Assembly: GCA_019638675.1 (NCBI GenBank)
Contig: JAHBTE010000001.1
Coordinates: 1,148,605-1,212,604, forward strand
Origin: Fimbriimonadaceae bacterium
GTDB lineage: Bacteria; Armatimonadota; Fimbriimonadia; Fimbriimonadales; Fimbriimonadaceae
Direction of reading: 5' to 3'
Length of the DNA: 64,000 nucleotides
Shown one piece after another: positions 32,316 to 58,763 of this stretch. The translations under genes and the position numbers were made by a program. The notes under the pieces were generated by a model. It was not told the origin of the DNA, did no database searches, and saw only the letters and a program-made list of their open reading frames with translations. Positions within the stretch are counted from its first letter, which is position 1, and every line of letters begins with the position of its first letter.

Positions 32316-33734
32316 GTGATCATGGCGGCACGAAAAAAAGCAGACGCTGCAACCACCGAAGCAAAGGTGCCAGCAGCAAAACGAGTGAAAAGGGCTCCAA
32401 CAGCGGTTCCTGCTGATGCGGTGACGCCTGAGCTTTTGAGCCAACTCCTTGCTCAAGTTCAGCAACTCACTCAAGAGGTCACAGAACTACGTACGAAGTC
32501 GAATTCTCCCGAACCGGCGCATGAAAAGGTTGCGACGAAAGAGGTTCTCACAGATGTAATTGAAGATGTAGTTTCAGAAAGTGAGCACATTGAAGAGCCT
32601 GAAGTTGAAGAAGCCGAGGCTGATGCCATCACTCCTGAGGAGGCAAATGCGTTGCTCAAAGGTTTTGATGAGGTCATGACTGAGTCACCCGCTGTTGAAC
32701 AAGAATCCACCGAGAGTGATGTAGTCGCTACTGAAACTGAAGTTGATGAAGATGCTCCGATGAGTGACGACCAAATCGCGGCATTGTTAAGTCAAGCGCA
32801 GCATTTGAGCGATCCTGTGCAGGAAGATCATCAGGTTGCTCCTCAGGTTACGGAAGAACCAAGCTCTTTGCAAATTGAATCAATCGACGATCTCACAGAC
32901 GATGACATCGCCGCTGCTCTTGATCAAGGGGCAGAGTATTCCGAACCAGCATCAATAAGCATTGCCGCCGAAGAAACGGTTGACGAGGAAGACGATTTTG
33001 ACTTCGCTAGTTTAACGGAAGAAGATTTGGCGGCGATGGTTCGACAGAGTATTGAAAGTCAGTCGGAGGAACGTGAGCAGCTTGCCACTCAATCTGGAAC
33101 GGATGCGTCGCAACTCGAAGCCATGCTAGCCGAATCGAGTTCCGATGTCATGAGCGTAGATCATATTGCATCTCTGCTCGAACAACCTGATCCTGAGGGA
33201 GAAATCATCCCCAGTGAATCGGTTGCCATGGATGATGATGAGATTTCGCGTTTATTAGCGGAAGCAAATGCGCTTGGCGGTGCACCAGCAAATCCGGTGA
33301 CGGCCGATGATTTAGGTAGCTTATTGCAAGCCGCCCAAACCACTCAGCAACCTGCTGAACCAGTTCATCCAGCCGCCGTCGCACAATCTGTTCAACAGCG
33401 TTCTAGTAGCAACGAATTTGATTTAGGGGCAGTGAAAGCGATTCCTTCCCATCTTGCGATTCGTGCTCTTGCTTTGCCAGTTTGCTTCCAAGAAGGAAAG
33501 ATTTTGTGCCGGGTAGCGGAGCCAGTAGATCGGGTCGCCGTTGACCGAATGTCGAAGGCAGTCGGCCTCGGAATTGTGATCGAACCAGCCTCGGTTGCCG
33601 AGGTTGTGAACGGGCTTCGAGAAGTTTATGCAGAAGTCAGTGAGGTTCACGCTCGCTTTGCAATGATGTCTGGCGCCCAAAAAAGGGTGGGTAGCTGGGA
33701 AAAATTCTCGCATCTATGGAAAAAAGGTGCTTAG
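32316..33734 (+). CDS. Acidic protein with nine EIDALL-like repeats and a C-terminal half MshEN domain
   Basis: The first 30 residues are basic. Residues 36-340 carry nine spaced copies of a motif of the form [MLVI][ST]x[DE][DE][IL]xxLL, separated by acidic linkers. Copies start near residues 36, 105, 149 (MSDDQIAALLSQA), 193 (LTDDDIAAALDQG), 233, 263, 279 (MSVDHIASLLEQP), 305 (MDDDEISRLLAEA) and 328 (VTADDLGSLLQAA). This resembles the FliM N-terminal motif LSQxEIDALL. Residues 367-445 match only the second half of an MshEN (GspE N-terminal) domain (AEPVDRVAVDRMSKAVG); the c-di-GMP-binding first half is absent. GTG start; an ATG two codons later is equally possible. The FlhG-like ATPase gene follows after 3 nt. 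Confidence 0.72.
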   Translation: MIMAARKKADAATTEAKVPAAKRVKRAPTAVPADAVTPELLSQLLAQVQQLTQEVTELRTKSNSPEPAHEKVATKEVLTDVIEDVVSESEHIEEPEVEEAEADAITPEEANALLKGFDEVMTESPAVEQESTESDVVATETEVDEDAPMSDDQIAALLSQAQHLSDPVQEDHQVAPQVTEEPSSLQIESIDDLTDDDIAAALDQGAEYSEPASISIAAEETVDEEDDFDFASLTEEDLAAMVRQSIESQSEEREQLATQSGTDASQLEAMLAESSSDVMSVDHIASLLEQPDPEGEIIPSESVAMDDDEISRLLAEANALGGAPANPVTADDLGSLLQAAQTTQQPAEPVHPAAVAQSVQQRSSSNEFDLGAVKAIPSHLAIRALALPVCFQEGKILCRVAEPVDRVAVDRMSKAVGLGIVIEPASVAEVVNGLREVYAEVSEVHARFAMMSGAQKRVGSWEKFSHLWKKGA

Positions 33735-33737
33735 AGA

Positions 33738-34565
33738 ATGAAAACAGTTGCGGTTTGTAGTGGAAAGGGAGGGGTTGGCAAAAGTGCGCTTGCTTGTAGC
33801 TTAGCGACCATCATTGCCAAAGATGAAAAGAAGGTTCTTCTTTTCGATGCCAACCTTGCGCTGCCCAACTGCGATATGTATTTCGGTTTAGAACTGGGCT
33901 GCACTATCGGGCACGTTGTTCGCGATCATCGTGAACTGCGAGATGCCGTGATGACCACTGCGAGCGGTGTTGATCTCATTTCTGGCGGAAGCGGTTGGAA
34001 GGAAATTGCGCTCATGTCCGAGCAAGACATTGAGAGCCTCATTCTCCAAGTGATCGAATTCGGCAGAAGTTATGACTATGTTATTTTTGATTGCGCTCCC
34101 GGATTAGGGTCGCGCGTGTTTCCATTTCTCCAGCAAAGTGATTCGTGCATGCTTGTTACTACAGGTGATGCGACGAGCCTTATGGATTCTTATGCGTTGC
34201 TGAAAAGTGCGTGGGAGTTAAAGCCGACCCTTAATGCTGGGCTCGTTGTCAACCACGTAGCAAATGCCGCTCAAGGTCGTCAGCTAGCTAAAGAAGTACA
34301 AACAATCGTCGGCCAATTTTTAAGTCGAGAGCTAGATTTCTGGGGTTCAGTCCGACATGATGTAACGGTGGCCAAATGCTGTGCCGAGCGAAAGGCGTTT
34401 GCTGAATCAAACCCGCTTTGCCATGCTTCACAAGATCTTGTCGATACGGCAAATGCGGTTATGGGAGAAGCGGTAAACGAGACTATTGAGCTTTCGATGC
34501 TGGATCGCCTTAAGAATCGGTTCTCAAAATCATCGGAACCAGAAGAAGAAACGGCTGCGGCTTAG
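33738..34565 (+). CDS. FlhG/MinD-type P-loop ATPase with C-terminal amphipathic helix
   Basis: MinD/ParA family ATPases dimerise on ATP and position protein complexes. The deviant Walker A SGKGGVGKSA (signature Lys10, Lys15) and the switch region YVIFDCAPGLGSRVF are present. The DANLALPNCDMYFGL segment is typical of the FlhG (YlxH) group, which sets flagellar or pilus number and place. A C-terminal segment (LSMLDRLKNRFSK, about residues 250-264) is amphipathic and could be a membrane-targeting helix, as in MinD. The repeat protein just upstream is the likely partner. The stop overlaps that of the convergent PAS gene by 3 nt. A second related ATPase lies at 56452-57210. Confidence 0.88.
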   Translation: MKTVAVCSGKGGVGKSALACSLATIIAKDEKKVLLFDANLALPNCDMYFGLELGCTIGHVVRDHRELRDAVMTTASGVDLISGGSGWKEIALMSEQDIESLILQVIEFGRSYDYVIFDCAPGLGSRVFPFLQQSDSCMLVTTGDATSLMDSYALLKSAWELKPTLNAGLVVNHVANAAQGRQLAKEVQTIVGQFLSRELDFWGSVRHDVTVAKCCAERKAFAESNPLCHASQDLVDTANAVMGEAVNETIELSMLDRLKNRFSKSSEPEEETAAA

Positions 34566-55696: not shown

Positions 55697-56455
55697 ATGC
55701 GCTTTTCAGCCGACCTGAATCTAATCCTCGGAGTGTTGATGATGCTTGTGGGATTCCTTGCGGCATTGTTGCAGACTTGGTTATGGACATTTCCTATGGT
55801 TCCTGATCCCAGTGGAAGTGATCCGAATGGAGTGACTACTGCTCCCAGGCTTTGGCGAATAGTGCATCGAGGTATGGGATATGTTTTTGCTCTTATTTAT
55901 CTGGTGCTTGCAACCCAAATGATTCCAAGAATCTGGAACTATGAATCAGTGGCTTGGTCGGCTACAACATTGATGCACTCTTTGTTTGGCTTGGGCGTTG
56001 GAGGGTTACTTGGGATCAAGATATGGATATTGAGGCGCGCTCAACGGCACGGCAAGAAGTTGCCCTACTTTGGGTGGGGAATTGTATTGCTTTCTACCAT
56101 AGTGGTCTCTCTTGTGTATCAGCCAGTAAGACAAGGGATTGTCCGGCCGGGGGTTTCAGATGGTGTTATGACCCAACAAGATGCTGAAAAAGCTCGACAA
56201 ATTGTGTTCAAAAATTGTATTCAGTGCCATGGCCTTAGCGTAGTGGCAGGCCCACGCGACGACGATTGGATGCACATCCTTGAAGAAATGGCTGAGAACG
56301 CCGAAAAGCGTGGTATTCCAGACCCTAGTGAGGGGAAACAGGCTTTGATCGCAAACTACCTTGAGGCAGCTTATGGCGCTGGCGCTGAATCAGACGAAGG
56401 TTCAGAACATGGGCGCGGTCGGGGCCGCGGTCGCAATCGTGGAGACGACGATTAG
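55697..56455 (+). CDS. Four-TM membrane protein with a C-terminal cytochrome c motif and Arg-Gly tail
   Basis: Four TM segments: ILGVLMMLVGFLAALLQTWL, HRGMGYVFALIYLVLATQMI, TTLMHSLFGLGVGGLLGIK, and GWGIVLLSTIVVSLVY. His residues in the second and third (IVHRGMG; TLMHSLF) could ligate a b-type heme. A heme c motif CIQCHG (codons at 56216-56233) follows outside the membrane. The C-terminus is HGRGRGRGRNRGDDD. ATG 55697 is my choice; a GTG at 55640 extends it by 19 residues. Its stop overlaps the stop of the convergent ATPase gene. Possible electron carrier. Confidence 0.75.
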   Translation: MRFSADLNLILGVLMMLVGFLAALLQTWLWTFPMVPDPSGSDPNGVTTAPRLWRIVHRGMGYVFALIYLVLATQMIPRIWNYESVAWSATTLMHSLFGLGVGGLLGIKIWILRRAQRHGKKLPYFGWGIVLLSTIVVSLVYQPVRQGIVRPGVSDGVMTQQDAEKARQIVFKNCIQCHGLSVVAGPRDDDWMHILEEMAENAEKRGIPDPSEGKQALIANYLEAAYGAGAESDEGSEHGRGRGRGRNRGDDD

Positions 56456-57210
56456 CTCGCCTGCCGAAGTGGGCTTTCTTTCCACTGCCGAACTGTTTGC
56501 GCAACTGCGCGGATATCACGAGCGGCTTTGCCATCAGGATCGGTGACAACGAAAAGCTCTCGCTTACGTGTAGCCAATGCGGCGCGGCGATCGTATTCGA
56601 CACTGCCAAGATAATCCACTTTTCGCTTGAGGTAAGTCCAGCAGATTTTTTCGAACATTGCGAATAGCTTTTGACCTTCGTCGAAGTTTGCCATGTTGAA
56701 CAAAACTTTTATCCGAGCATCGGGTGATCTGCGAACAATGGTTTTCACCGTTGCATAAGCATCGGTGATGCTCGTTGGATCAGGACTGGCAACGATGATA
56801 ATCTCTTCGCTCAGCTTCAAGAACGAGACGACGCGGTTATCAAGACCAGCGGCACAATCAAAAATCAAAATGTCGGTCGAGTTCTTGAGGTCGGCAAGCT
56901 GACTAAAGAATAAACCGAGTTTCTTTGGGCCGGCGCGCATCAGGCTGGGAACTGCCGAAGCTCCGGTAATTGCCTGAACTCCTCCTGGCCCCTTGGTAAC
57001 GATTTCCGCAAGGGTTTTTTCTTCTGCTACTACGTGCTGAAGGTTGAATTCGGGATTGATGCCAAGTGCGATATCGAGATTGGCAAGCTGCAAATCCGCA
57101 TCAAAAACTGTGGTTCGTTCGCCAGCGGCTACAAGAGCTGCGGCAAGGTTTGCGGAGAATGACGTTTTTCCAACGCCGCCTTTTCCAGAAGTGATTGCAA
57201 TGGTGAGCAT
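56452..57210 (-). CDS. FlhG/MinD-type P-loop ATPase, second copy
   Basis: 252 residues. Deviant Walker A SGKGGVGKTS (Lys10, Lys15), DADLQLANLDIALGI, the switch region ILIFDCAAGLDNRVV, and ASPDPTSITDAYATVKT. These match the ATPase at 33738-34565 in family and in partner type. The C-terminus has no obvious membrane-targeting helix. It starts 9 nt after the MshEN gene in the same operon. It probably works with that protein in localisation or switching. Confidence 0.88.
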   Translation of the reverse strand: MLTIAITSGKGGVGKTSFSANLAAALVAAGERTTVFDADLQLANLDIALGINPEFNLQHVVAEEKTLAEIVTKGPGGVQAITGASAVPSLMRAGPKKLGLFFSQLADLKNSTDILIFDCAAGLDNRVVSFLKLSEEIIIVASPDPTSITDAYATVKTIVRRSPDARIKVLFNMANFDEGQKLFAMFEKICWTYLKRKVDYLGSVEYDRRAALATRKRELFVVTDPDGKAARDIRAVAQTVRQWKESPLRQAS

Positions 57211-57219
57211 GGTTCTAAA

Positions 57220-57840
57220 TTAGTCTCCGTAGGTGTCCCACAGTGAGTCGGTGCCAGTTCCGGCAATAGCGGCGAGAAGATCTTTTCGGTCCGGCTGTTC
57301 ATCCACCTTTGGAGTGCGAGCGACTCGAGGTTTTTTGGCGACCGGAGTTGCGGCTTTGGGAGGTTCTTGCGAGAGCAGGGGTGGTGGTGTTACGTTGGAA
57401 ACCACCGATGGAACCGCGTAGTTCTTGGTGATTGCTCGGTAAATCTCAGTTGTTCCGGCAAGCGAGATAATCAGCCGCTTGCCAAGGGCTTTGCTTAGGT
57501 AATCGGTGCCTTCGATATCAAGCGGATCTGCGATTGCACAATGAAATTCTAAGTCCGTTACCATGATCGGAAGGATTAAGCGAGACAAGGCAAAAGTAGG
57601 AGAAACGAGTCGCAGGGCAGTTTGCGTTGGCTCAATTTCCGCCATATTGGCGATTGGAAGGTCGTACTGCTCGGCTAAGCACGCAACAATCTGGCATTCG
57701 GTAACAATTCCCATCGAAACAAGAACTTCACCAAACCGGTTTTCGGTTTTCTTTTGTACGACCAGCGCCTCGTCGCGCTGAGCTTCGGTAATGATTCCCT
57801 TTTCAACCAGAAAATCTCCGACACGTTGATAACGACTCAT
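57220..57840 (-). CDS. Stand-alone MshEN (GspE N-terminal) domain protein, predicted c-di-GMP binder
   Basis: 206 residues from ATG 57840. Two consecutive 24-residue motifs of the MshEN c-di-GMP-binding type are visible: Arg6-Gln29 (RVGDFLVEKGIITEAQ..) and Arg35-Gln58 (RFGEVLVSMGIVTECQ..). They are followed by the second half of the domain (AIADPLDIEGTDYLSKALGK, to about residue 145). A Pro/Ala/Lys-rich linker and a C-terminal segment (KDLLAAIAGTG) come last. There is no ATPase domain, so it is not a GspE/PilB enzyme. The FlhG/MinD-type ATPase gene follows after 9 nt; the HDOD gene is 80 nt upstream. Confidence 0.85.
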   Translation of the reverse strand: MSRYQRVGDFLVEKGIITEAQRDEALVVQKKTENRFGEVLVSMGIVTECQIVACLAEQYDLPIANMAEIEPTQTALRLVSPTFALSRLILPIMVTDLEFHCAIADPLDIEGTDYLSKALGKRLIISLAGTTEIYRAITKNYAVPSVVSNVTPPPLLSQEPPKAATPVAKKPRVARTPKVDEQPDRKDLLAAIAGTGTDSLWDTYGD

Positions 57841-57920
57841 GAATCTGCCCCGGTGCAATTAACACCTGGTGAAATTATTGGCAAGCCAAGTCGCAAACCT
57901 TACAGAAATCTTGAAGTTTT

Positions 57921-58763
57921 TTACGCCGCCAATAAGCCTTGTCGCTGCGATGCTAGCGATGCCAGATCAGCCAAGTGATCTTCAGCAAATGGGCTACTGT
58001 CGGCAAGAGTGAATGTTGTGCTCCAAGGGGCCAAACCATGTCCAGTAGATTCCGCGTATTGCTTCGCAATTTGCAGACAGAGGTGAGAAGTCGTCTCGGG
58101 TTCTGTGGCATTGGATGCTACACAGACTTTTGTAAAAAATTCTGGCAATGCCAGTGCGAACGCCGCTCTTTCCGCGAGTTCACTGATCGGGTAGCCAAAC
58201 ATCATCGAAAATGTTTGATCTAGGGTCGCATTGTGGCTTTCGGCGAGCTTGTAAACGTCATTAAAAGCATCTGGTGCCACGTAGCTGAGCAATCCAAATA
58301 AGACGTTATGAAGCGCACCGGCCGCGAGTAGTTCTTCAGCCGACCATTCGCCATCAGTTGGGCTGATATGGAGCTCTGTCACCAATTGGCTGGCAAGTGA
58401 ACCAACGAAGTTGCCGTTTGAAGCAAAACGATGAATATCTAGCAAAGAACCAGGGCGTCCGCAACTCATCAGAGCATTTGTCCAAAGGGCAATGCTGAGC
58501 GACTTCAGCGATCGGAATCCAAGTACAGATACCGCCTCACGTACAGTAGTGACTTGCTTTTGACGAGCATAAAGCGCACTTGATGCGGCTCGAATTAGAC
58601 CGGCCGTCAGGGCTGGATCGTTTAGAACGATATCATCAATTTTTGCGGGCGACGGATCGCCGGAATCCAAAAGCTCCGCAAGCCGCAAAGGAGAATCGGC
58701 TATTTGAGGCAGGGCGGTTGCGCTGCCAAACAAGTGTTGGAGTTCAGTAAAAGTCGCAGGCAT
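57921..58763 (-). CDS. HDOD-domain protein
   Basis: A 280-residue HDOD (HD-related output domain) protein: LPQIADSPLRLAELLDSG, DIVLNDPALTAGLIRAASSA, VREAVSVLGFRSLKSLSIAL. The HD metal residues are absent, as is normal in HDOD. It has a single domain and a helical end. HDOD proteins commonly sit in signalling pathways for motility and c-di-GMP. Placed upstream of the MshEN/ATPase genes on the same strand, it is likely part of the same system. Confidence 0.85.
   Translation of the reverse strand: MPATFTELQHLFGSATALPQIADSPLRLAELLDSGDPSPAKIDDIVLNDPALTAGLIRAASSALYARQKQVTTVREAVSVLGFRSLKSLSIALWTNALMSCGRPGSLLDIHRFASNGNFVGSLASQLVTELHISPTDGEWSAEELLAAGALHNVLFGLLSYVAPDAFNDVYKLAESHNATLDQTFSMMFGYPISELAERAAFALALPEFFTKVCVASNATEPETTSHLCLQIAKQYAESTGHGLAPWSTTFTLADSSPFAEDHLADLASLASQRQGLLAA

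Follow-up and report, generated by a model that had tools for sequence, protein, structure and literature searches.

FlhG-type ATPases (FlhG, FleN, and YlxH) interact with the N terminus of FliM or FliY (the EIDALL motif). The HubP/FimV landmarks are long acidic repeat proteins that recruit ATPases of the ParA/MinD family. HubP is reported to assist the polar localization of FlhG (title of Takekawa et al. 2016, as cited in PMC9061725). The residues K177, R207, and F215 of Geobacillus FlhG are crucial for FliY binding, and the substitutions tested, R207E among them, fully abolish it (PMC12327844). FlhG also has a non-flagellar partner near its FliY site in Bacillus subtilis, namely, the cell-cycle regulator GpsB, the C-terminal domain of which binds the ATP dimer of FlhG (PMC12327844). 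The EIDALL sequence of the FliM N terminus is the docking motif of CheY-P (PMC9126983). In MshEN domains that act as c-di-GMP receptors, the N-terminal subdomain carries a pair of 24-residue motifs (PMC11731258).

In the present study, we analyzed a 64,000-nucleotide stretch of a Fimbriimonadaceae (phylum Armatimonadota) genome (the window), in which a gene for a protein with a motif array (P) precedes that for an ATPase (A). The first-pass annotation had placed a 472-residue protein 3 nt ahead of an ATPase gene; both open reading frames (ORFs) were confirmed, and they share the same frame. The features are summarized in Table 1. Since the orthologues of P open with MAARKK or MPARKK, its real start is probably the ATG at 32322 rather than the GTG at 32316. 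P consists of a basic, coiled-coil-like N terminus, an acidic motif-bearing stretch, a half-MshEN domain, and a basic tail, in this order. The N-terminal region is kept across the genus wherever the N terminus is present, and the helical moment of the tail, taken alone, was not significant against shuffled sequences (p 0.12). P and A are neighbors both in their genus and in related ones. Most members of the genus share a gene order in which the pair has GlpX on one side and a MoxR/DUF58/VWA operon on the other, and it does not belong to a flagellar gene cluster.

The FlhG-FliM/FliY interaction and the HubP/FimV landmarks are nearest in function to P and A; P belongs to neither family. Unlike HubP and FimV, P gave no Pfam match to LysM, TPR, or FimV domains, and its repeat is a FliM-like helix. 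P was also rejected as a FliM/FliN protein: FliMN_C (PF01052) matches in the genome were found only at C1:1468404 and C1:1469283, outside P.

Table 1. Features of the P-A locus and of the second MshEN-ATPase pair in the window
Feature	Coordinates	Strand	Basis and remarks
P, motif-array protein with C-terminal half-MshEN	32316..33734	+	ORF, 472 aa, GTG start; orthologues in 13 related species
P basic N terminus (MAARKK...) and helix of ~24 residues holding VTPELLSQLL	32322..32498	+	Sequence; model helix 36-59
Site 1, VTPELLSQLL, weakest, within N-terminal helix (residues 36-45)	32421..32450	+	Alignment to relatives
Motif 2, ITPEEANALL	32628..32657	+	FliM-profile score 17
Motif 3, MSDDQIAALL	32760..32789	+	FliM-profile score 23.5; helical in both models
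Motif 4, LTDDDIAAAL	32892..32921	+	FliM-profile score 17.5
Motif 5, LTEEDLAAMV, opens 26-residue helix (233-258)	33012..33041	+	FliM-profile score 16; model
Motif 6, TDASQLEAML, degenerate	33099..33128	+	FliM-profile score 16
Motif 7, MSVDHIASLL	33150..33179	+	FliM-profile score 19.5; orthologous site in genus
Motif 8, MDDDEISRLL	33228..33257	+	FliM-profile score 20; orthologous site in genus
Motif 9, VTADDLGSLL	33297..33326	+	FliM-profile score 15.5; sole fit to strict pattern
C-terminal half of MshEN domain	33438..33629	+	Pfam PF05157 positions 20-84 of 90, E 0.0048; Foldseek
P basic amphipathic tail, SWEKFSHLWKKGA	33693..33731	+	Kept across genus
A, FlhG/FleN-type ATPase without DQAxxLR helix	33738..34565	+	ORF, 275 aa, ATG start; profile against PDB
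A deviant Walker A, GKGGVGKS	33762..33785	+	Signature Lys and P-loop Lys invariant
A Lys156, equivalent of Geobacillus FlhG K177	34203..34205	+	4rz2 alignment; PMC12327844
A Phe194, equivalent of Geobacillus FlhG F215	34317..34319	+	4rz2 alignment; PMC12327844
A C-terminal MLDRLKNRFSK, membrane-targeting-like	34497..34529	+	Helix 722-738 of fused model
Paralogous FlhG-type ATPase, second pair	56452..57210	-	MshEN-ATPase locus search
MshEN protein, second pair, both c-di-GMP half-motifs recognizable by eye	57220..57858	-	Pfam MshEN 5.4e-12, above cut-off

The first-pass annotation described nine copies of [MLVI][ST]x[DE][DE][IL]xxLL in P and noted their resemblance to the EIDALL motif. The array is real; however, the strict pattern fits a single site, VTADDLGSLL, and the annotation's example motifs break its own pattern. 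A relaxed pattern matched six sites in P against a mean of 0.09 in shuffled sequences (p 0.0005, a generous value because the pattern was devised with the sequences in view). A profile constructed from the N termini of FliM from this order alone identified seven sites with a score of 16 or higher in the window's P, whereas the shuffled mean was 0.68. This result bears out the resemblance to FliM, and the best sites were the motifs named in the annotation. The N-terminal motif of the genome's own FliM is ILSQDEIESLLNSL, and the motifs of P are similar to it. As judged from sequence, P holds six to eight good motifs and one doubtful motif, which is well above chance. A DNA pattern for the EIDALL core, with which further motif-bearing proteins were sought, was too strict to detect the window's P; its matches in relatives were chiefly P and FliM, and those in the window's genome and in its nearest relative, G003, fell outside any ORF longer than 100 aa.

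The array was found in 14 species with two to seven motif copies each, which is the variation in repeat number that the annotation proposed to look for (FliM-profile scores cover 12 of the 14 P proteins, with G017 and G006 left out). Between the window's P and that of G003, the motifs were 91% identical and gapless, whereas the linkers were 73% identical with 25 gap columns; the MshEN part and the tail were 100% identical. The arrays of G005 and G002 contain tandem units of 90 nt (2.6 copies) and 114 nt (2.3 copies), respectively, and, therefore, arrays grow via tandem duplication. With the motifs conserved above the linkers and recurring in relatives, the array is not the generic low-complexity sequence that the annotation had named as a refutation. 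In G006, the P gene (L067:6816-8611) is divided into two overlapping frames near its repeated unit, which may be due to an error in sequencing or to a genuine frameshift or broken gene; both translated pieces were joined solely for motif counting.

The C-terminal part of P was examined with Pfam and Foldseek. The window's P scored 17.3 bits against PF05157, below the cut-off of 23.1, and eight of the nine other P genes scanned exceeded the cut-off of the MshEN family. The top Foldseek matches of the P model were MshEN/GSPII domains (MshE, the GSPII domain of PilF, PilB-N, and XpsE-N). By both Pfam family and fold, we assigned this part of P to the C-terminal half of the MshEN domain, in agreement with the annotation. 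P shares the C-terminal subdomain with PilB, MshE, PilF, and XpsE; unlike these proteins, it carries neither the N-terminal subdomain with the c-di-GMP motifs nor a traffic ATPase domain. The known mode of c-di-GMP reception was ruled out for P because the N-terminal subdomain, with both motifs, is absent.

The half-MshEN domain is not confined to P. For each FlhG-type ATPase that was fetched from the order, the neighboring genes were searched with a half-MshEN profile; this profile was partly trained on the proteins found, and examples of every kind were confirmed with the Pfam model itself. An MshEN protein adjoined the ATPase or was fused to it in all of the order's loci tested except L061, which is cut by a contig end. 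In contrast, none of 80 control loci, nearly all of other phyla, had MshEN beside the ATPase. These loci came from a Walker-type pattern scan; most of its matches were FlhG and MinD genes from other phyla, which served as controls and as alignment rows but were of no use for gaining further P genes. The rule has exceptions because, in a phylum-wide draw, L228, a member of the family, had no MshEN alongside, while L214 and L227 had an MshEN gene downstream of the ATPase. FlhG elsewhere in the phylum was mostly without an MshEN gene in the stretch fetched; in G051, which belongs to another family of the phylum, an MshEN gene lies immediately downstream. The window's genome contains three MshEN-ATPase modules: P-A, the pair at 56452-57858, and a fused protein of 388 aa (L114:4252-5418, corresponding to G000:C1:2542251-2543417), in which a half-MshEN is joined to a MinD/FlhG-like part with the deviant P-loop GAKGGVGTTS. 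Such fusions were found in at least three genomes, including that of the window, and the fused paralogues exceed the Pfam MshEN cut-off. On the sequences compared, the half-MshEN is the constant partner and the array is the special feature of P. Because the half-MshEN is constant in all partner proteins and fusions of the order, we infer that it contacts the ATPase in all versions. A link between MshEN and FlhG was not described in the open-licence papers found.

A had been annotated as a FlhG/MinD-type ATPase. The profile of A and its relatives, searched against the PDB, matched FleN (1.8e-68) and FlhG (3.5e-60) ahead of archaeal MinD (8e-39) and E. coli MinD (2e-21). Furthermore, the predicted fold of A matched FleN first (Z 36.5) and FlhG next (35.0). 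Therefore, FlhG and FleN are closer to A than MinD and ParA are, and the FlhG side of the assignment stands. As a MinD, A was rejected, scoring 67.6 bits with NCBIfam minD_bact (TIGR01968) against a cut-off of 212.9. The MinD rows formed a separate starred clade in a quick tree, and the order's ATPases were placed apart from FlhG of other phyla; several forks of this tree are open, and the placement of three long-branched P-type rows is unsure. The N terminus of A, MKTVAVCSGKGG, lacks the FlhF-activating DQAxxLR helix, whereas most FlhG proteins from the phylum's other families carry it. The membrane-binding-like helix ascribed to A would correspond to the basic amphipathic segment MLDRLKNRFSK, which is helical in the model; however, its helical moment was only marginally above that of shuffled sequences (p 0.036). 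The ATPase following P in G022 (L073:7248-7909) is very divergent, with the sequence KGGVGRTT and Arg in place of the P-loop Lys, and is possibly inactive.

We mapped the FliY-binding residues of Geobacillus FlhG by aligning A to 4rz2 with an offset of 8. This offset was deduced from the residues themselves, as K, R, and F all coincide exactly with 4rz2 chain positions 185, 215, and 223. The equivalents of K177, R207, and F215 in A are K156, E186, and F194. The K177 equivalent was present in 10 of the 13 P-type ATPases and in one of the eight MinD rows, and the F215 equivalent in 11 of the 13 and in none of the eight, respectively. K156 is general to FlhG-type proteins and, thus, is no marker of P partners. 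Species with an ATPase retaining both K and F had two to seven motifs (median 6), whereas the four species that lost K, F, or both had two or three (p 0.007, from a small sample of related species with phylogeny uncorrected). At the R207 position, the P-type ATPases have Glu in five species (A and four others), Gln in two, and Arg or Lys in five, among them G001, G008, and G011. Since R207E abolishes FliY binding in Geobacillus FlhG, the Glu of A should, by analogy, weaken FliM-type docking unless neighboring residues compensate. This Glu is the strongest single point against the docking of the motifs on A.

The P-A chain was also modelled in AlphaFold as a fusion, with the single TAG between the ORFs read as Gln. 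Short helices were predicted at most motifs. From P alone to the fused chain, confidence increased from 65 to 81 in block 151-160, from 59 to 82 in block 251-260, and from 54 to 72 in block 311-320; the linkers remained near 30, and the confidence of the MshEN part decreased. The gain at the motifs lends weak support to the putative docking on A, with the alignment depth differing between the two runs.

Based on these results, we tentatively propose, with somewhat less than even confidence, that P and A together make up an FlhG-derived positioning module of two proteins, in which P would serve as a multivalent scaffold that mimics FliM and on which the ATPase may dock. P would be an elongated, acidic, and largely disordered chain, the short motif helices of which would mimic the FliM N terminus and each engage a single ATPase, at the face of A equivalent to the FliY/FliM-binding face of FlhG. 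The N-terminal helix of P may oligomerize the protein. The half-MshEN may fix one ATPase dimer, a role proposed because this element is common to all partners and fusions in the order, and recruitment of the complex to the membrane may involve the basic tails of both proteins. Many ATPases would then be collected at one site, or the ATPase would be kept off the FliM N terminus. A membrane machine, probably the C-ring of the flagellum, would thereby have its location or number fixed without the help of FlhF. We regard as rather doubtful the fuller version of this proposal, namely, that a landmark-type scaffold of repeated flagellar docking peptides gathers FlhG-derived ATPases, competes with FliM, and replaces FlhF in positioning, with the array being one version of an order-wide MshEN-FlhG system.

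The proposed module resembles the FlhG-FliM/FliY system in the kinship of A by sequence and predicted fold, the likeness of the P motifs to EIDALL, and the retention of two of the three docking residues. It differs from that system in the absence of DQAxxLR from A and of FlhF from the family, the Glu at the R207 position, the many motifs on one dedicated partner, and the MshEN partner. P may also be compared with GpsB, a non-flagellar partner that binds near the FliY site of FlhG; however, no motif array has been described for GpsB.

The Glu at the R207 position also speaks for an alternative in which the motif helices bind P itself, either other chains or its own half-MshEN, to produce an oligomer or condensate, while the ATPase binds the half-MshEN only. 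The coiled-coil-type N-terminal helix and the acidic linkers are in keeping with this alternative, as is the fact that all partners have just one element in common, the C-terminal MshEN half, which at least three genomes encode as a fusion with the ATPase. We consider it unlikely; it leaves unexplained the recovery of the motifs by a FliM N-terminal profile and the lower number of motifs where A lost its docking residues.

The docking proposal concerns flagella, and the flagellar gene content of the order was surveyed in 41 genomes. FlhA was present in 38, with three genomes lacking it, and FliM/FliN in 39. FlhF, defined as TIGR03499 above cut-off, was found in seven of the 41, none of them in the window's family. 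The first-pass annotation regarded the array as a form of MinD-type localization not tied to flagella. This part of its claim was unsupported: the genomes are flagellated, and the fused 388-aa paralogue is encoded directly upstream of a flagellin gene in the window's genome. We lean toward a flagellar role for P and A because flagellar genes are present, the motif is that of FliM, and a sister module lies beside the flagellin gene. It is improbable, in our view, that the ATPase-motif interaction is real but positions type IV pili, a secretion machine, or another non-flagellar target. Outside this order's modules, MshEN is a domain of pilus and type II secretion ATPases, P-A lies between the MoxR/VWA operon and GlpX away from the flagellar genes, and three genomes of the order lack FlhA, all of which fit such a target; the FliM character of the motif, the presence of FlhA in most of the order, and the fused paralogue adjoining the flagellin gene do not.

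We find it highly improbable that the repeats are an acidic spacer of ordinary capped helices with no specific ligand. The linkers are indeed acidic and of low complexity, and the motif alone is poorly specific because S/T-x-x-E/D helix caps are common. However, the motifs are more conserved than the linkers, occur in 14 species, and were gained through tandem duplication.

CheA (PF02895) is absent from the window's genome, which is 98% complete, and from G003, which is a single contig; it is present in the six other genus members tested. The single CheW-type match in each of these two genomes is not a CheA, and both keep flagellar genes and an EIDALL-type FliM motif. The FliM motif in the window's genome presumably has another ligand. 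An array for phosphorylated CheY-type response regulators, suggested by the role of EIDALL in CheY-P docking, is most unlikely here because the array and an unchanged FliM motif persist in both genomes without CheA, and no chemotaxis gene was seen near P.

The family examined here is flagellated yet lacks FlhF, and almost every one of its FlhG-type ATPases lies beside an MshEN protein. This bears on how flagella are placed and counted in the absence of FlhF. The MshEN-FlhG coupling in such a lineage would surprise a specialist, the array itself is unusual, and the order-wide coupling is a lead in its own right, whatever the motifs bind. If the proposed binding is true, the array represents a natural multivalent ligand for the FlhG class of ATPases, and a domain best known from pilus ATPases has been recruited to an FlhG-type ATPase.

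Several further observations were made on these loci. The first-pass annotation overlooked the order-wide coupling, the lack of DQAxxLR in A and of FlhF in the family, and the docking of CheY-P on EIDALL. Five genomes of family f2 in the same order (G029, G031, G035, G037, and G039) have FlhF above cut-off with no close FlhG-type ATPase found, which is the reverse of the situation in the window's family. The second pair in the window, with a full MshEN domain, adjoins an HDOD-domain gene (56452-58763, minus strand), and an HDOD gene is located approximately 3 kb upstream of the corresponding MshEN-ATPase pair in G001 (L079). The MshEN partner in G028 (L082:7023-8312) has 429 aa and a C-terminal part that appears kinase-like by eye, for which Pfam gives MshEN alone; other family f5 genomes encode MshEN partners of about this length.
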